Below are positions 6,602-54,518 of a DNA stretch of 64,000 bases, one piece after another. The position numbers were made by a program, and so were the translations under genes. The stretch covers positions 19,796,450 to 19,860,449 of the forward strand of contig NC_134029.1 of assembly GCF_964204645.1 (NCBI RefSeq), in the 5' to 3' direction. Source of the DNA: Tubulanus polymorphus. Its lineage: Eukaryota > Nemertea > Palaeonemertea > Tubulaniformes > Tubulanidae. Position 1 is the stretch's first letter. Every line of letters starts with the position of its first letter. Under the pieces are notes generated by a model that did no database searches, had not been told where the DNA came from, and worked only from the letters and a program-made list of their open reading frames with translations.

Positions 6602-9600
6602 TTATTCGCATCGCTCGATCAGTTTATATGCCACCTCCGATTTGATTTTCTGCGAAACGAAACCGATCCGACTGGCGCCGGTGACGAACACAATACTGCA
6701 ACCGAGGCGGTTCAACTCGTCGAGATAATAATCGCGATCGACCGCGTCGCCGTCGTCGTCGTCGTCCTGTAGGTGGCGTTGTTTATCGCAGTCGGAATCG
6801 TCGACGATCAGCAACACGTTGTCCTGTTGCAGGTACTGCTCGACGAACGTTCGCAGCACGTTGTCGTTGGAGACGACGCGGTCGCAGTTCGTCAACTTCG
6901 ACACGACGCAGTCGGCGATGGTCGCGTTCGCGGCGACGATGTCATTCGTGCGCACGACGAACGCGAGCGTGAAGTCCGACGCAAAGCGCTGGCAGTGGTC
7001 GGTGTCGTCGTACTCGAACGCGTGGTTCAACAGGCCGCCGTTGCTGACGCGCGTCATACCGCACACCCACTGGTGCAGCAGGAAGTGCGTGAACACCTTG
7101 GCGAACAGGTCGCACTCACTGCGCACGGCTATGCGGCCGCTTCGACCGACGCCGTGGAAAACGTCCTCGGGACACACTTCCCTCGACCTGAAATACGATT
7201 AGAAAACAAAATCACGGATTGAGATTTCGGAAAAATGAAAAGAAATTTAACATAAAATTGGCGTTTGTGATTAATTCTTCAATACCGGTTATTTTCTAGC
7301 TTTAACGGGGGTTTACAGCAGACCCCACTAAATTTTGCTCATCAGAGGCCAGTTGCCTAGTCGTCGCTTATACTTAAGACCCATCTAAGACCAACTTAGT
7401 TATATAGCCAAATAACAACTTAAGACCGGTCTTAAGATTCAAGGCTAGTGATAGTGCAACTGGGCCCTGAGACTGATGGAATTAATCTGGTTAATGAAAA
7501 ATCCGGATTAATAAACGTACATCATATTTAAAGCATAACTCAGGTCGACTAAGATCCGATCTGATAGTCAGATCATAAGCGGTCAAGTCTGCGATCTTTT
7601 AGTCGGGAACCTATTCGACATGAGTTTACTTACGACCGCGACGGATTCATCGCACACCGATCATAAGCCGGATCGTAATCACCTTAACATTGTAATCGAT
7701 CTTAAAGATCTTAAGTCAAGAAAGGTTTATTGCATTATTGAAATGATAAGAATTAGCAATGGACATAAACAAACAAGCTGATTAATTCATTGCTAGAAAC
7801 ACTGACTTAAATCAGTACCAAAAATTAAGGTATGCCTTTATAATCGTTGTAAGTTTATTAATTGACAATAACTAACACATCATTCATAATAAAAGTGAAC
7901 AGCTTTTTAATAAATCAAATTGGTCGATTTGAGATGGACGGATTAAGTGATTGCTGACATGTAGCAGGGTTGATTTAACAAGAACATTTTTTGAGATACA
8001 TAATGCCTTTTTCAATTACTTGGAGTATAGAGTTTGCGAAGAAATAATGGGAGGGTGAAGTGAAAAAATTAATAAAAGAAAAAAAAATGTTCTTAGTAAC
8101 ATAAAAAATTTGATGATTTAAAAAAATTGATTTATTTTTATTCAAAAATTGTGAGGAAGACACAAAAGGAGGCCTAAATTTTCTTTTTTGATTGGTTTTT
8201 TTGTTGCAGAATTTAGGGAGGCGGATCCATACTCCAAGTTATTAAATAAAAGCCACAAAATAATCAGTGAAAACACAAACGCTCTAAAAACTTCTATGAG
8301 AAGATTTCAAACAAAAAATTCAAAACTTTCATATAACATAAACTGATGAAAAATCTAAAAGGAAAAAGCAAGCAGCGAACAGTGAACGAACTAAGTAACT
8401 ACACCAAGCGTATGTACAAATAATTCTTACTGGACCACTAGTTGACTGCCACCAATTCTCTGCGAAGGGCCGAGAATTGTTAGGATGCGAACTAACGACA
8501 TTGGTTTTCGCATGAGCAAGTCCTCGAACGAATCGACGCGAGCCATCACAGTTAAACTGCGTATCGACGACTCGAATTGCTGGAGAAGTTTGTTCCGTAC
8601 GTGAACCAGGGCTCCTTCAAACAGAAGATCATAAGAAAATGCTAATCCGATTACGTATCTATAGGAAGGTGACGTTGTTGTCGGACTAAGCGCCGGGATT
8701 TCAGGGCCCGCGGTTTCACGAGCGGGGATTGAGCCCCTTATTCGGGTTATTGGCTCATTCGAATTAAGACTTTAAGGTTAATTTTTGATGGGCATTAATT
8801 TCAATTCGGATTAATAACCCGAAAATCTAATCCTACCACGGAGCAGGGTTAAATCGGCTTATTCGTATTAGTTACTACGAAAATGAGACTCGAATGCAAA
8901 CAACATGACAAGCCTTTTAGAATTAAGCCAAGGATTAAGCCAATTTAATTCGAGTTATCCCCTAATTCGAATTATAAGTTAACCCGCGTATTCATGAAAC
9001 CGGGCCCAGCGGTGCTACGTTGTTACATCACTCGCGCTAAGGATGCACTACGTGTGAAATGAAGGAATTCAACTCAAAATAGATGGACCTACCCGAATTG
9101 GTCGATTACCTAACCATCGCGGTATAACGGGGAACCCGCAACACCAGCTATCCCACTAGATGGCGTGACAAGCAGTAGGTCATCCGTTGTCGAAACAAGT
9201 TCATATTTAGTGAACTTTAAACTGGATTTTTCGATTCCCTAATCCAAATAGGCCTATTATCACAGCACCGACCAAATAAACAATACTTTCATTCGTCTAC
9301 TCGGATATTGGTATAGTTTTTCATGAATAATCGATTCATTTAGGAGAAAAATTCATTCGGATTTAATTGAAATCTAGAAGAAATCGAGTGCGGACGACCA
9401 ACTATCATCTACTAGTAACTTCTTGCAGATACTCGTTCGCCGTATGTTGAATCCTCAATACCACAGTAGCGCTGCGGGTAACCCATTAGCCCATGTATAT
9501 AACAAGCTCTACAGGACTAAAAAACGTCGGTATGTAGGCCTAACGGTACGTAAAAAATAGTTGGTTACTCAGGAATGCGTGCATACTCTATGAATGACTC

Positions 9601-11270
9601 TAGGGGCAAAATCCGATGGTTTTAAGGGAAACTAACTAGAAGTTCAAGCGCGTATTTTGGCAGTGCTTTGACAGGAAAAATATCCATCACGAGAATTTTC
9701 AATGATACTATGCCATTGTTTTACAGAAGGTGGGACCCTTAACAATACAAAGTGGCATCTACATACGTGTAAATTATAAAATACAAAAATAAATTTTGCC
9801 CCCTCATGTAGTAAGCGCCCATAATTTAAAGGGGTACTAAGTTTAAAGGATCCACCCCGTGCCCCTAGTCTATAGGCAACTCATTAACACTAGGGATTAA
9901 ACAACATTATCAAACTTACCGGAAGTATCGGCCAGTTCTAAGAAGCCCGTTTCTGATATCGTACTATCCTCGTCCCTCATAATCAGTCCGTGCGGCCCGT
10001 GGGCGTTGGCCGCTATCACATGCGTCAGGATCGCGCCTTCGAACTTCACGTTGCTGCCGAAGTGCACGTGCTCCATGTTGCAGAACGTCAAATTGGCGTT
10101 CGAGAAATCACAGTTGGACATCGACAAGCCGGCGAAGTCGGCGTGCGTCAGGTTCGTGCCGCGAAACGACACGCGCGTCAACTTCTCGGCCATGTGGCTC
10201 ATGACGATGCGCGAGAAGTCGCACTTGGAAAAGTCGGCGTAGTCGAGATAGAGCTGTCCGATCATCAGCTGCGTAGGCCGGTAGACGACCTTCATGTCGC
10301 CCTTGAACCCGTGGCTGACGCGCACGAAGTCGGTGAACGACTTCTGAAAGTCGTTGTTCGGGCCGTGGTGGTTGTTGTTGATGTACGACAGCAGGTCGTA
10401 CGAGTCGATGAATATGTGGTACGGCCGGTAGAGCTGGTGCACGTTCTGGAAACTGAACGGTATCTCGGCGTTCACGCGGTGGTGATACGTCGCCTGGTCC
10501 TGAAAGATCAACTCGAAACACCGACGCCGGTCGTTCCAGTCGTACATCGGGTTGCGAAACCCGTACTTGTGCGGCTTGCACGCGTGCCCGTATGGGCTGA
10601 AACACTGGTAGAACTTGTACTTCGTCTCCTCGGACGAGCCGGGCTCCTCGAGCCGCAAACCGGGGCACTTGAATATCTTCGAAACGTTCCACGACGTCGT
10701 TTTCAAGCGCGTCGACACGTATTTCTTTTTGACGCGCGCGTTCGCCTCCATCACCGCGTGGAACATGTCGTTGCGACAGAAGTTGACGTCCGGTTTTTTC
10801 AGCGAGTTGAACATGCAGTCGACGACGTACTCGGCGAGCGTGTCGACGTCCGAGACGTTCGCGATCATCACCACCTGGTACTCGTAAACGATCGCCAGCT
10901 CGGTGGCGACCTCTTGTATGACACTTTTCAAGTCGCGCATGCCGATACGCGACAGCTTCGACTTCGCCGTCTGCTTACGCGGCATCGGCGGGCTGCCGCT
11001 TTCGGACTGCGTTCCGGATTGCGGCGGCGCATACGACGCCGGCGCCGACGCAGGCCGGCCGCGGAGGCTGTTCGATTTTTTCAGTCGGTTGCGCGCGCTG
11101 CCGATTCCGATGCGGTTGCGCGTCGGCGGGAAATCGAGGATGCTGATTTTTGTCGCGTTGATCAGCGAGGAATACTTGGTGAAGAAGAATCTAATTATCG
11201 CGTCGTGGAAGAGATCTTTACGATCCTTCACTTCATCCAGGGTCGGATGTCTGGAAGCTTCAGTTGCCAT
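6602..11270 (-). CDS. Pentapeptide-repeat protein with degenerate NTPase-like C-terminal region (715 aa)
   Basis: Exons on the minus strand: 11270-9920, 8641-8431, 7187-6602. The splice phases agree (phase 1 then phase 2), with donors GTAAGT and GTAAGA. I do not recognise a named homologue. Residues 341-420 carry A/C-D/N-F-S/x-x pentapeptide repeats, expected to form a right-handed quadrilateral beta-helix. A basic, Pro/Ser/Gly-rich linker lies near residues 65-110. From about residue 520 the order of motifs recalls STAND/NACHT ATPases: GVGRSGRI at 533-540 sits where a Walker A would be but lacks the Lys, VLLIVDDSD at 645-653 resembles Walker B, and SIVFVTGAS near 685 resembles a sensor strand. 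An aspartate run lies between the last two. The ATPase reading is inference from motif order; the exon model is well supported. The middle exon has a second possible acceptor nearby, but only the chosen one keeps frame. Confidence 0.72.
7345..7468. repeat. Foldback MITE in intron 2 of the pentapeptide gene
   Basis: The left end CAGAGGCCAGTTGCCTAGTC and, on the other strand, the right end CAGGGCCCAGTTGCACTATC are inverted copies. The arms continue inward with CTTAAGACC motifs. Confidence 0.55.
9129..9484. repeat. MITE with GGGGTACCCGCA-type termini, copy 1
   Basis: The left end GGGGAACCCGCA and right end TGCGGGTAACCC are imperfect inverted repeats. The whole 356 bp matches, in reverse orientation, the element at 41192-41522. 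It sits in intron 1 of the pentapeptide gene. Confidence 0.7.
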
Positions 11271-32582: not shown

Positions 32583-34395
32583 ATTTTCAACATTTCAAAA
32601 CAGAATCAGATGGTAATAGCCGGCAGAGGGGCAGACGGTTCTAGACAAGTATTCCCCGATGATTTGTCCGTGTGAAAGTCGAACTTCAACGTTCTAATCC
32701 GATAGTTGTCCTGCGTCGCGGGATCCTTGACGAGGCCGAAATCGTGTTCAAACACGCCGATCCACTTACGGTCCTGATAAACGGTTCCACACGCTTTCAC
32801 CTGGACTAGTCCGTGCGGCTCGCTACGGCCGCGGACTCCGCCATCGCCGTTGTGACTGAATACTAGCATTTCGCGCGTCGTCAATTGTAGCAGTTTTTCG
32901 TGAACCGGGAAAGCTCCTTCAACGTGATCGACTTGCGACCGATTCATACGCAAAATCAGCTGGCAATCGGGCCATAAATGATCGGGCGAAAAGACCGCGT
33001 CGTTATTGCCACCGCGTTGCGGGTTCGTTGCGTTCCAGAGATCGTAAAACCACCGAGCGAAGTGCCACGCGAATACATTCCAATCCGTAGACCCGGGCAC
33101 GTTCGCACTCGCTTCTGCTTCAATTGTCGTAGAATTATGCACAGGTTGACTCGTTTCTGCTACGGTTGGCGTAGATGTAGGCGTAGGTCGACTAAGTTCT
33201 GACGCGACTGCTGTATCGGATGTCATCGCGGCAACAGGAGATTTCCATTTTTCCAGTATTTTCTGAATAATGATCTGTTTGCCCGCGTTTGGCGATATGG
33301 ATACGTTTTCGTTCACTAAATAAAGCACCAGCGCGTCTTTTTTTATCTTTTGACGGCTGAAAAGCTCCTCGCTGGTTTGCGTGAATTTGAAAATTGCCTC
33401 CATCGATTCTGCAAATTGTAAGAAAAACGGGCTGAAGTAATGGTACATCAGGGTTGTTCCGCTGAAGCAATTTCAGCGCCTTTATAAATAGTGACACTAC
33501 TTCCAGTCTTGAGTAATAATTGTGTGAACATGCAAGACAACAATTGCAAAACTGGCACCAAAACTTAGATATTGTTTCATCCTGACATTTGGGGCGGTAC
33601 AATTGCACCCATCTTCAGAGATTTACTTCAAATTGATGGTTACTAATTATAATTAATATATATTATTATTATCTATCATATATTAACATATTTATTATTA
33701 TTCATAATTATTTATTTCATATATATCTATTATAATATATTATTATTCATTGCAATATGATTATCATTTTATTAATATTAGTTATTGTTTCTTGAATCTG
33801 CATTGTTGGTGTTCACACTATTATTTCAGCACCTCTCTGGCTCGCATGTTGTTAGCCGGAGCGGCAATGTGTGCCATATGGTACACAGGCCATACATGAC
33901 ATACATGAGTTGTTGATACTGAAAAAACAATTATGTGTTCAACTGGCATATCTGTTAATCCAGTGCCTACTTTCAGACTCTGGATTGATAAGACAGATTA
34001 TCGTTTTTGCAGTAACTCTCCTACGAGCCCCGTCACACATTCCAGGATCGTCCAGTCAATGTTCGATATTGATGTCCCTGCAAAAACTCAAATCAAATAG
34101 TCAACAAGGACAGAGAAATTGCTGAGATTTTTTAATCCCAGACGTAGGAAATGACCTTGTCATTTTCTTGCAGGATAACCACCACACACATACAACGGTC
34201 TAACTGCAGTTTTAAGGTCACCTTTCCAATTATCCAATAATGCGTGGGGCACTAGAGTTGTTAAAGAATAGTGTTATGGTTAGGTACAACCACCAGGAAC
34301 ACCTAAACTGTAGTCGCTTCTGTATTTGTATTTTACAACCGTCGTGTCCTGTGTAATTTTGTTATTACTACGAAGCAATAAATGTTTATTGAATA
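32583..34395. repeat. Segmental tandem duplication, unit 1 (1813 bp)
   Basis: Unit 1 (32583-34395) and unit 2 (34396-36208) are nearly identical head to tail; corresponding bases are 1813 apart (stop codons at 32606 and 34419). Only a handful of substitutions are visible. Each unit contains a terminal exon of the C3orf38-like gene and about 980 bp of its intron. The junction shares the short word AATT. Confidence 0.95.
32606..33408 (-). CDS. Duplicated terminal exon of the C3orf38-like gene (distal copy)
   Basis: This exon is open for 267 codons and has an intact acceptor (TTTGCAG before 33408), but no first exon of its own lies between it and unit 2. It could be used only by splicing from 36283 over the proximal copy, as an alternative last exon, or not at all. 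Compared with the proximal copy it encodes three different residues (SEELF for SQELF, TSDTAV for TADTAV, GGNND for GGKND), and it is intact, so it is either very young or under constraint. No AATAAA is close downstream. Confidence 0.75.
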
Positions 34396-36208
34396 ATTTT
34401 CAACATTTCAAAACAGTATCAGATGGTAATAGCCGGCAGAGGGGCAGACGGTTCTAGACAAGTATTCCCCGATGATTTGTCCGTGTGAAAGTCGAACTTC
34501 AACGTTCTAATCCGATAGTTGTCCTGCGTCGCGGGATCCTTGACGAGGCCGAAATCGTGTTCAAACACGCCGATCCACTTACGGTCCTGATAAACGGTTC
34601 CACACGCTTTCACCTGGACTAGTCCGTGCGGCTCGCTACGGCCGCGGACTCCGCCATCGCCGTTGTGACTGAATACTAGCATTTCGCGCGTCGTCAATTG
34701 TAGCAGTTTTTCGTGAACCGGGAAAGCTCCTTCAACGTGATCGACTTGCGACCGATTCATACGCAAAATCAGCTGGCAATCGGGCCATAAATGATCGGGC
34801 GAAAAGACCGCGTCGTTTTTGCCACCGCGTTGCGGGTTCGTCGCGTTCCAGAGATCGTAAAACCACCGAGCGAAGTGCCACGCGAATACATTCCAATCCG
34901 TAGACCCGGGCACGTTCGCACTCGCTTCTGCTTCAATTGTCGTAGAATTATGCACAGGTTGACTCGTTTCTGCTACGGTTGGCGTAGATGTAGGCGTTGG
35001 TCGACTAAGTTCTGACGCGACTGCTGTATCGGCTGTCATCGCGGCAACAGGAGATTTCCATTTTTCCAGTATTTTCTGAATAATGATCTGTTTGCCCGCG
35101 TTTGGCGATATGGATACGTTTTCGTTCACTAAATAAAGCACCAGCGCGTCTTTTTTTATCTTTTGACGGCTGAAAAGCTCCTGGCTGGTTTGCGTGAATT
35201 TGAAAATTGCCTCCATTGATTCTGCAAATTGTAAGAAAAACGGGCTGAAGTAATGGTACATCAGGGTTGTTCCGCTGAAGCAATTTCAGCGCCTTTATAA
35301 ATAGTGACACTACTTCCAGTCTTGAGTAATAATTGTGTGAACATGCAAGACAACAATTGCAAAACTGGCACCAAAACTTAGATATTGTTTCATCCTGACA
35401 TTTGGGGCGGTACAATTGCACCCATCTTCAGAGATTTACTTCAAATTGATGGTTACTAATTATAATTAATATATATTATTATTATCTATCATATATTAAC
35501 ATATTTATTATTATTCATAATTATTTATTTCATATATATCTATTATAATATATTATTATTCATTGCAATATGATTATCATTTTATTAATATTAGTTATTG
35601 TTTCTTGAATCTGCATTGTTGGTGTTCACACTATTATTTCAGCACCTCTCTGGCTCGCATGTTGTTAGCCGGAGCGGCAATGTGTGCCATATGGTACACA
35701 GGCCATACATGACATACATGAGTTGTTGATACTGAAAAAACAATTATGTGTTCAACTGGCATATCTGTTAATCCAGTGCCTACTTTCAGACTCTGGATTG
35801 ATAAGACAGATTATCGTTTTTGCAGTAACTCTCCTACGAGCCCCGTCACACATTCCAGGATCGTCCAGTCAATGTTCGATATTGATGTCCCTGCAAAAAC
35901 TCAAATCAAATAGTCAACAAGGACAGAGAAATTGCTGAGATTTTTTAATCCCAGACGTAGGAAATGACCTTGTCATTTTCTTGCAGGATAACCACCACAC
36001 ACATACAACGGTCTAACTGCAGTTTTAAGGTCACCTTTCCAATTATCCAATAATGCGTGGGGCACTAGAGTTGTTAAAGAATAGTGTTATGGTTAGGTAC
36101 AACCACCAGGAACACCTAAACTGTAGTCGCTTCCGTATTTGTATTTTACAGCCGTCGTGTCCTGTGTAATTTTGTTATTACTACGAAGCAATAAATGTTT
36201 ATTGAATA
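34396..36208. repeat. Segmental tandem duplication, unit 2
   Basis: See unit 1. The end of unit 1 brings AATAAA (minus strand, 34385-34390) to within 30 bases of the unit 2 stop codon, so the duplication itself supplies a poly(A) signal for this copy. Confidence 0.95.
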
Positions 36209-51088: not shown

Positions 51089-51925
51089 AAAATTGTAGAT
51101 ATAATGATGAAATACTAAGCATCACTCTTTCAATGCTTCGTCTTTTGGTTACTTTAGTATGGTGTCTGATTCGGGCCATACTAAAATATCAGAATCAAGG
51201 AGGCGAGAATTCAAAAAGTTTGGTGACCTTTTGGTTTCGCGAGAAAACAACAAAAAGGGGCCAAGGTGAAAATGTTTTTATCGTTCCTCTATCCGCACAG
51301 AACAATTTCTTAGCATGGCCCAAATCAGCCATCATACTTTAGGGATGCCCTATATCTTAGATTCCTTTAAAAGGCTAGTAGGTCCAACATATACGTTACA
51401 ATCATGGAACATTCTCGTATTAAGTTCGGATAATGTATACGTGTAAACCACGGTTTGTCCATTAGACTTAATTTCAAGAAATCATGCGATCCATTTAAAA
51501 TGATGTATTTCTCGAATTGAATTCCACGCACCGAACGCGACGAGCATGTTCTATTGCATTAGTCAGATAAATAAGATAATGCATTCAATAAATCTATAAT
51601 CTGACCACATGAATTTACTGTTTAATATCGACAAATGCGATGAAGCAAAGATAACTTCCATTTTTCTGACTAAAGTTGTGGAAAGCGAATCAGTCTTTCT
51701 TCTTTGATCCTTTCCGGATATTTCAAAAGAAGCACGACAGACAGAGAAAATAGGGGATTACGATGATATATATTCATGTCTAAATCGAATATTCGCATCA
51801 GACTCCGAATTCGAATTGTTCACGTTTTATTAAGCTAAAGATCAAAGTTTCAAGAACAAGAGCACTTACGCAGTAAGTCTGAGATTTTACGACTGTCGTA
51901 TTCGTGTTCTCGAAAACGTGATGCT
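51089..51925. other. Spacer upstream of the GPCR pair
   Basis: No gene seen; should hold the first GPCR promoter. Confidence 0.5.
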
Positions 51926-52885
51926 ATGAACTACACTGGAACAACAGGCCGCTATGTAACAGCTTGGTATACGACTTTACTACAGGATACTCTACAATCC
52001 GTCGATTTTAAAGTGCGGTTCGTGCAGAAGTTCTTCGGACCAATAGTCGTCGCACTGGGCGTTGTTGGAAACCTCGCCAGTTTCTTGGTGATGACGAGCG
52101 AGAAATTCCGCGTGTTTTCCTACTCGCAGTACCTGGCCGCATTGAGCGTTTTCGACACTCTTACGCTATTACAATACCTCATACCTTTCGTTAATTTCTA
52201 CACGTATCCGCATTTAGTTATTGCAATTTCTACGAGTCTCGGTTGCCGAATCTACGAATACTTGAGCATCGTCAACGACGCCATTAGTTCATGGCTAGTA
52301 GTTGTAATAACGCTGGAACGCTTGGCGATAATTACGTGGCCATTTGCGGCTCGGAATATCGCCACCCCAGCGTTCTCCCGTTTGGTCATATTCTTCGTGG
52401 CTCTGGTCGGTTATATTTGTTACAGTTTCATCATAGTTGCCGTCAAGCACAACGGCAACACGTGCGTTATGTTAGAATTTTGGCAACGTATTTACTTCAA
52501 AGCAGCTTCGTACACCCTCGTGTACGGGCCGGCCATATTTCTCATCATGCTCAATACGACATTGATATTCATTCTTCGACGAAGTCAAACGTTTGGGCAA
52601 AATAAGAAAAAAACGGCCAATATGAAAAGAGCCACGGTAATGGTTCTCTCCGTTTCTATTCTATTCGTATTTTTTACGTTTCCGGGTGGTATTTTTACCG
52701 ATGTTGCTACGTCGTTCGGTTTTTCGCGGCAAGTTATCCTTGACGGATCTGCCATAACGGGTTTCCTCTACGGCATGAATTCCGCGATCAATTTCTACGT
52801 GTACTTGTTATCTGGAGGCGAAGTACGCCAGTTTGTTGCTGAGAAATTAAAAGCACTTTTTAGATGCGAGCGTCCACAGAAATAG
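51926..52885 (+). CDS. Class A GPCR, intronless, tandem copy 1 (319 aa)
   Basis: Seven hydrophobic segments are spaced as in rhodopsin-type receptors. TM1 has GNLASFLV and TM2 LAALSVFDTLTLL (the N and D of the family). Cys in LGCRIYEYL at the start of TM3 and in NTCVM in the second outer loop can form the usual disulfide. The DRY position reads ERL, and TM7 reads NSAINFYVY in place of NPxxY. TM6 has TFPGG rather than the CWxP switch. The N-terminus has a glycosylation site (NYT), and the C-tail is short. The overall style is that of invertebrate neuropeptide (FMRFamide/orphan) receptors. The ligand cannot be told. About two thirds of residues match the next gene. Confidence 0.85.
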   Translation: MNYTGTTGRYVTAWYTTLLQDTLQSVDFKVRFVQKFFGPIVVALGVVGNLASFLVMTSEKFRVFSYSQYLAALSVFDTLTLLQYLIPFVNFYTYPHLVIAISTSLGCRIYEYLSIVNDAISSWLVVVITLERLAIITWPFAARNIATPAFSRLVIFFVALVGYICYSFIIVAVKHNGNTCVMLEFWQRIYFKAASYTLVYGPAIFLIMLNTTLIFILRRSQTFGQNKKKTANMKRATVMVLSVSILFVFFTFPGGIFTDVATSFGFSRQVILDGSAITGFLYGMNSAINFYVYLLSGGEVRQFVAEKLKALFRCERPQK

Positions 52886-53567
52886 GTATTTGGTTTCATA
52901 ATTCATGAAGATTTTTTACGTTATTTGGTCTGGTACTCAATGAAACCGCTGACAAATTGACAACAAGACAACGGCTATCGATTAGCATTCGTTATCTAGC
53001 ATAGCTGATAAAGAATTAATCAAATGACAATGCCTTTTTTATTATGCTTTTGATCTAAGTAGGCACCTATCAGACATAAAAATACATGTATATAGAAGAT
53101 GTACAAAATATTCTTTTTTCATTGCAAAGTATTTCTTGAGGTTTCAATTAAAATCCAGGCCCTCCACTCGATTTGGCCATACAATATATTTTAGTTATTA
53201 GAGATCAAATTCAATTTTCATATTTCAGTTGGACACTTTTACTAAAATCATTTTTATATACTTATACTTACCGACTTGAACAATAATGTAAGCACAAACT
53301 ACATGTAGGCTTTGAGCACAGTGGCTGATGTTTGTTATAGTATTTCTGTATCTATTTTATCACGAATGGAAATTATGTTTCAAAATTGAAGTAAAATTTC
53401 GTTTCCACGATGAATCATGGATGAGTTAATATAGTTAGCTCTCATTTCATAGATGATCGGTCTTTCATATATTTGTATATTGCGTAAAATAAATTTGATA
53501 TAATGTCGACCTCTCGCGCAGGCATATTCTATAGGAAGCAATGATTTAATTTAGCAACATCATTCAA
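52886..53567. other. Spacer between the two GPCR genes
   Basis: 682 bp of AT-rich sequence, no gene seen. Confidence 0.6.
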
Positions 53568-54518
53568 ATGAGGCCGTTTCATTCGAACAGCACGTCAGGC
53601 CGATATGAGCTGCCTTGGTACACGTCTATACTGCAAGACTCATCGCCGCTAGTCATTGCAGACGTGCGGTACGTACAGAAATGCCTCGGACCGCTTATTG
53701 TAGCCATCGGCATCATTGGCAACCTCGCCAGTTTCTTGGTGATGGTGAGCAAGAAATTCCGCGTGTTTTCCTACTCGCAGTACCTGGCCGCATTGAGCGT
53801 TTTCGACACTCTTACACTACTAGGATATGTCATACCGTTCGTTAATTTCTACACGTATCCAAAACCAGTTATCTCATTTTCTACGACCCTCGGTTGTCGT
53901 TTGTACGAATATATAAGCGTTGTCAGCGATGCAATAAGTTCGTGGCTGGTTGTAGCGATCACGTTTGAACGTTTTGCGATTGTCGTTTGGCCGTTTGCAG
54001 CTCGAAAGGTAGCCACACCCGCTTTCTCGCGATTAATAATCACTTTATTGGCACTCGTTGCTTATATTAGTTACAGTTTTATTCTGGTTATCGTCGAGCA
54101 CAACGGGAGGACCTGCGTTCTGCCGCGGTCTTGGGAACGTGTTTACTTCAAAACAGCTTCATACACTATCGTGTACGGGCCGGCAATATTGCTTATCGTC
54201 CTCAATACGGCTTTAATATACATTCTTAGAAGAAGTCAGTCGTTAGGGCTAAACAACAAGAAGGCCGCCAATATGAGAAAAACGACGGTTATGGTCGTCA
54301 CTGTTTCTATTCTATTCGTTTTATTTACGTTTCCTGGTCGTGTTTTTACTGATTTCGCTTGGACGTTAAGATTTTCCAAGTTCGTTATCATAAACGGGGC
54401 AGCAATCACAGGTCTTCTTTATGGCATGAATTCGGCCATTAACTTTTACGTGTATTTGCTATCTGGAGCTGAAGTACGTCAGTTTTCCCATAAAATATGT
54501 AAAAACATTTTCTCGTGA
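53568..54518 (+). CDS. Class A GPCR, intronless, tandem copy 2 (316 aa)
   Basis: Paralogue of the gene at 51926, same strand, with the same signatures: GNLASFLVM in TM1, LGCRLYEYIS and RTCVL cysteines, ERF at the DRY position, TFPGR in TM6 and NSAINFYVY in TM7. The N-terminus has an N-S-T site. The C-tail is even shorter, ending KNIFS. Both genes lack introns, consistent with a lineage-specific receptor expansion by tandem duplication after an intronless founder. A 95-bp block in TM1-TM2 is much more similar between the copies than the rest (see findings). Confidence 0.85.
   Translation: MRPFHSNSTSGRYELPWYTSILQDSSPLVIADVRYVQKCLGPLIVAIGIIGNLASFLVMVSKKFRVFSYSQYLAALSVFDTLTLLGYVIPFVNFYTYPKPVISFSTTLGCRLYEYISVVSDAISSWLVVAITFERFAIVVWPFAARKVATPAFSRLIITLLALVAYISYSFILVIVEHNGRTCVLPRSWERVYFKTASYTIVYGPAILLIVLNTALIYILRRSQSLGLNNKKAANMRKTTVMVVTVSILFVLFTFPGRVFTDFAWTLRFSKFVIINGAAITGLLYGMNSAINFYVYLLSGAEVRQFSHKICKNIFS

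Follow-up and report, generated by a model that had tools for sequence, protein, structure and literature searches.

A single-copy pentapeptide-repeat gene of the nemertean Tubulanus polymorphus with a candidate inactive STAND-like C-terminal domain

A 64,000-nt stretch of the Tubulanus polymorphus genome, hereafter the window, carries on its minus strand a real three-exon gene with a maintained reading frame, whose product joins pentapeptide repeats to a C-terminal segment that may be a strongly diverged STAND NTPase core from which the Walker A lysine is absent. The furthest-reaching interpretation, somewhat less likely than not, is an animal receptor or scaffold of the inactive-STAND kind, in which a pentapeptide beta-helix is combined with a STAND core dead for NTP binding and whose gene is maintained as one copy in a genome that also has active Apaf-1-like and NACHT genes.

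The three exons can be spliced into one open frame, and the splice signals are canonical. Exon 1 (9920-11270, minus strand) runs from the ATG through codon 450 and one further nucleotide, and ends at the donor CCG/GTAAGT. Exon 2 (8431-8614, minus strand) is 184 nt long and leads from phase 1 to phase 2, and exon 3 (6602-7187, minus strand) is entered at the acceptor TTTCAG/G and closes with a TAA stop (6602-6604). The introns, of phase 1 and phase 2, are 1.2-1.3 kb each, and both begin with the donor GTAAG. A direct junction between exons 1 and 3 is precluded by their phases, 1 at the end of the former and 2 at the start of the latter, and the 184-nt exon 2 acts as the bridge. The first-pass annotation had proposed an in-frame three-exon model encoding 715 residues. 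This model was reproduced, with its motifs in the same places, when exon 2 was entered at an alternative acceptor at 8641, which gives exactly 715 aa; inspection of the acceptor at 8614 (TTTTCTTATGATCTTCTGTTTGAAG/G) revealed a far better pyrimidine tract than at 8641, and the product is therefore taken as 706 aa.

Codon log-odds were 0.57 for exon 1 and 0.60 for exon 3 in its true frame, a bias like that of known genes, while exon 2 gave an intermediate in-frame value of 0.27; stop-free non-coding stretches reach at most 0.32. The open frame, the strong codon bias and the intact splice sites speak for a maintained gene. That the gene is instead decaying or mis-joined, with exon 3 the remnant of a complete STAND gene and its union with exon 1 an artefact of the model, seems very improbable. 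The moderate coding bias of exon 2 would fit such a history, as would the lack of an AATAAA or ATTAAA signal within 1 kb downstream of the gene and the ending of the NTPase core before a winged helix. Nevertheless, the 706 codons contain neither a stop nor a frameshift, both ends of the gene are strongly codon-biased, the phases demand exactly such a middle exon, and a codon bias scan detected no further coding-like exon within either intron.

In the 267.8-Mb, 77-contig genome, exons 1 and 3 each occur once, and no close paralogue of either was found. One weak genome match to exon 2, at E 0.37, looks like chance and was set aside. From recognition of their sequences, we take the nearby genes to encode a FEM1-like ankyrin protein, an arylsulfatase and GPCRs; these neighbours, like the Apaf-1-like and NACHT genes elsewhere in the genome, mark the sequence as animal. 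Two of the GPCR genes, of rhodopsin type (51839-52885 and 53550-54518, plus strand), are intronless, closely alike and arranged in tandem. Elsewhere in the window, two DUF4518 ORFs (PF15008, E 6e-50) on the minus strand (32606-33472 and 34419-35285) are near-identical tandem copies 1813 bp apart; they share a 300-nt block of 100% identity, which points to a very recent duplication or to an assembly duplicate.

The pentapeptide repeats announced by the first-pass annotation are certainly present. Within exon 1 they follow an N-terminal region of unknown fold (residues 1-338) and occupy residues about 339-420 (10011-10256, minus strand), as delimited by PF00805 and PDB matches, with the Pfam core at residues 369-404 (10059-10166, minus strand). 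The PF00805 match has an E value of 4.1e-12 and scores 45.9 bits against the Pfam cut-off for family membership of 20.2, and a PDB sequence search retrieved designed and natural pentapeptide proteins with E values down to 3e-6. Residues 1-338 matched no curated family, and a search of residues 1-334 detected no BTB domain at E up to 10.

Pentapeptide repeats are rare in animals. An earlier remark to this effect holds within the present genome, where the PF00805 profile gave 36 matches and, among those that were translated, two genuine pentapeptide genes were recognized: the gene described here and one at C2:718.9-719.5 kb which, from its sequence, we presume to be KCTD9-like. Several matches on other contigs (L046, L049, L055, L057, L058, L060 and L062) appear to be translated minisatellites and not pentapeptide genes, a reason for caution in counting PF00805 profile matches in animal genomes.

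The last 194 residues of the product, encoded by exon 3, form a candidate degenerate STAND/NACHT-like domain. Its P-loop had been placed at GVGRSGRI (7130-7153, minus strand), with 111 residues from there to the Walker B Asp and 50 to the Phe of strand 2. In NACHT proteins of the same genome, the P-loop precedes the Walker B Asp by 74-80 residues, the strand-2 Phe by 16-18 and the sensor-1 Thr by 103-109. In most bacterial NB-ARC proteins the Walker B spacing is 77-81, and the largest among the STANDs scanned was 92. The assignment of GVGRSGRI as the P-loop is doubtful because its Walker B spacing is 111 as against 74-80. By spacing, the Walker A position falls 31 residues further on, at GMTRVSNG (7037-7060, minus strand), from which there are 19 residues to the Phe, 80 to the Walker B Asp (D129) and 120 to the sensor-1 Thr. 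Here the second Gly is changed to Ser, the Lys to Asn and the Ser/Thr to Gly. GVGRSGRI can then be re-read as part of PEDVFHGVGR, which aligns to the LPxDxxxFVGR of bacterial NB-ARC proteins and stands 28 residues ahead of the P-loop position, where those proteins have 22-33. We conclude from these spacings that GVGRSGRI is probably the GR motif found upstream of STAND P-loops and not the P-loop itself.

The alternative that the domain is STAND-like with GVGRSGRI as its P-loop, Arg replacing Lys and about 30 residues inserted before strand 2, is unlikely. It draws on the resemblance of VFHGVGRSGRI to the VVHGMGGSGKS of an Apaf-1-like protein of the same genome. Profile scores alone were divided on the P-loop, a P-loop-started profile preferring GVGRSGRI by 1-10 bits under some gap settings. 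Both spacings nonetheless depart from those of the NACHT set, the distance to Walker B exceeds that in any sequence scanned, and the preceding residues fit a GR motif and not a hydrophobic first strand. Neither GVGRSGRI nor GMTRVSNG contains a Lys, and no GxxxxGK[ST] occurs anywhere in the product; the lack of a Walker A Lys, as first annotated, thus stands under both placements, whereas the position given for the P-loop was probably wrong.

Downstream of GMTRVSNG, a Walker B-like strand, VLLIVDDSD (6791-6817, minus strand), aligns to Walker B and keeps the acidic pair at the usual distance. The strand resembling sensor-1, VFVTGAS (6671-6691, minus strand), lacks the Arg of the TTR/TSR that follows strand 4 in STANDs. 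The stop codon is reached 22 residues past VFVTGAS, and the winged-helix and helical region that follows the core is absent.

Curated families were silent on exon 3. No STAND family of Pfam, NCBIfam or PADLOC matched it at E up to 10, nor did NACHT (PF05729) or NB-ARC (PF00931) match exons 2 and 3 together at that limit; the profile search suggested earlier as a check on the product thus recovered the pentapeptide repeats but neither NTPase family. Matches of the two protein ends to DUF5329, DUF6651 and Csx19 (Pfam, NCBIfam, PADLOC) were weak, below every cut-off, and were rejected. A PDB sequence search with exon 3 yielded no real match, those to ferredoxins being due to chance.

Profiles built from STAND sequences were compared on a panel of 299 windows, comprising exon 3, 59 windows from nearby or own-genome animal genes and 239 from Escherichia coli. 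A HMMER profile of 20 NACHT domains from the same genome matched exon 3 with 14.7 bits over residues 63-133 (6788-7000, minus strand), spanning strand 2, a helix and Walker B. Shuffling the exon 3 sequence 3,000 times gave at most 5.8 bits and reversing it gave -1.9. Exon 3 ranked first of the 299 windows, and the next scored 5.5 bits. With hhalign, a mixed STAND profile aligned to the whole of exon 3 (P 4.7e-4), and no shuffle or decoy scored higher. A core profile made from 22 STAND sequences, trimmed to the core and applied globally in the profile, also ranked exon 3 first of 299; in the comparison with shuffles it reached Z 3.9-5.5, and no more than 1 of 300 scored higher.

Other profiles gave lower placings. 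Two mixed STAND profiles run in HMMER ranked exon 3 14th-15th of 299, and animal-only STAND profiles ranked it 3rd-13th. A bacterial NB-ARC profile gave Z 1.2-2.0, with 7-10 of 59 decoys scoring higher, and was inseparable from chance; it was made, like the alignment used for fold prediction, from 80 actinobacterial NB-ARC domains fetched with an approximate NB-ARC query. An Apaf-1-like query found no match in the bacterial genomes. True STANDs left out of the profiles reached Z 5-13.5, well above exon 3, and, as several profiles were tried, the best score for exon 3 is partly selected. The STAND-like character of the tail, proposed in the first-pass annotation, is upheld by first rank with two profiles but not by the remaining ones (3rd-15th) or by curated families. 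There is moderate support, from sequence comparison, for exon 3 encoding a strongly diverged STAND-like core.

Structure prediction was carried out with AlphaFold2 on exon 3, exon 2 being left out of the models. The single sequence gave a pLDDT of 34. When 22 NB-ARC domains were aligned to it, pLDDT rose to 53.5, and to 75-83 over part of residues 80-120, in a model whose alignment is itself NB-ARC-biased. Foldseek returned no match with E below 0.001 for this model. VIA-align 2 superposed its residues 43-191 on the AAA+ ATPase core with Z 4.0 or less, residue 43 falling near the P-loop start of the AAA+ chains, and no NACHT or NB-ARC chain was among the 50 matches listed. As the supplied NB-ARC alignment already imposes such a core, the AAA+-like placement is a weak result prone to alignment bias.

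The silence of the curated families and of Foldseek, together with the failure of several STAND profiles to part exon 3 from decoys, would be expected if exon 3 encoded an unrelated alpha/beta domain, Rossmann-like and not of P-loop type, whose STAND-like motifs arose by chance. The product would then be a scaffold built on pentapeptide repeats, and its C-terminal domain would be an orphan. The VTGAS string, which recalls dinucleotide-binding dehydrogenases, is in keeping with this. We consider such an origin possible though rather unlikely, given a NACHT-profile score unequalled by any of the 3,000 shuffles or 298 decoys and an agreement with NACHT proteins in both the order and the spacing of the motifs. 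A dehydrogenase identity as such was rejected because too few residues follow VTGAS for such a domain.

If exon 3 does derive from a STAND core, the product, intracellular and about 706 aa long, would comprise the N-terminal region (residues 1-338), a short beta-helix of pentapeptide repeats, a linker of helical character encoded by exon 2 and a C-terminal module. This module would descend from an NTPase of the STAND class (NACHT/NB-ARC-like) and retain its alpha/beta core alone, Walker A, the sensor-1 Arg and the winged helix having been lost. We infer the fold, the partner and the function of the tail from these features. The loss of the phosphate-binding loop and of the sensor Arg suggests a core without NTP hydrolysis, and most likely no NTP turnover would be needed for function. 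The chances that the product is an NTP-independent pseudo-STAND scaffold or sensor appear about even. In KCTD9 and in bacterial proteins, the pentapeptide solenoid is a protein-interaction surface; the solenoid of the present protein could likewise offer a flat face to which a ligand or partner binds. The dead STAND core could form an assembly surface, perhaps for the active Apaf-1-like and NACHT STANDs of the genome. Alternatively, the core might bind nucleic acid, a role that Kaur et al. (2020, PMC7159879; 2021, PMC8195603) proposed for the inactive STANDs of bacteria.

The NACHT/NLR-type and Apaf-1-type STANDs of the same genome (L003, L016-L036) resemble exon 3 in the order and spacing of the GR motif, P-loop position, strand 2, Walker B and sensor-1, and the NACHT set gave the significant local profile match. 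In contrast to these STANDs, the present protein lacks the Walker A Lys, the sensor-1 Arg, the winged helix and C-terminal repeats, has its pentapeptides N-terminally and contains no recognized Death, CARD or TIR domain. Among the STANDs themselves, some 25 NACHT ORFs (L016-L036) have intronless frames of about 800-1000 aa, and several are clustered on contigs C6, C9 and C56, indicating a lineage expansion of NLR-like genes. L003 (C5:4464964-4465518) is an NB-ARC exon of Apaf-1-like type, and ahead of it, in the same frame, lies a segment that looks CARD-like by eye. Nothing was seen to link the pentapeptide gene to immunity. KCTD9, a BTB plus pentapeptide adaptor, is likewise an animal pentapeptide-repeat protein; it has no NTPase-like tail, and the present protein has no BTB domain.

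To our knowledge, animal pentapeptide proteins other than KCTD9 are nearly unstudied, and it is chiefly in the conflict systems of bacteria that inactive STAND modules have been described. The erosion of NTP-binding motifs in a STAND core likens the present protein, by description, to bacterial iSTAND and iSTAND2, and related bacterial systems include pentapeptide repeats among their modules (PMC7159879, PMC8195603); unlike these, the animal protein is encoded by a single gene without a MoxR-vWA partner. According to Kaur et al. (2021, PMC8195603), the well-studied STAND systems of eukaryotes offer no functional precedent for inactive versions. We found no animal pentapeptide-STAND protein in the open library of papers searched, and a named orthologue group may exist. 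Should the tail not be a STAND core, the gene would encode an orphan scaffold of pentapeptide repeats, and its interest would be modest. If the inactive-STAND reading is true, the protein would represent in an animal the kind of 'dead switch' so far described in bacteria, its tail resembling an immune or cell-death NTPase switch without the nucleotide-binding residues, and would be a eukaryotic counterpart of bacterial iSTAND components, and a conserved animal protein of pentapeptide repeats and STAND core would provide a testable case of a STAND core that works without nucleotide switching.
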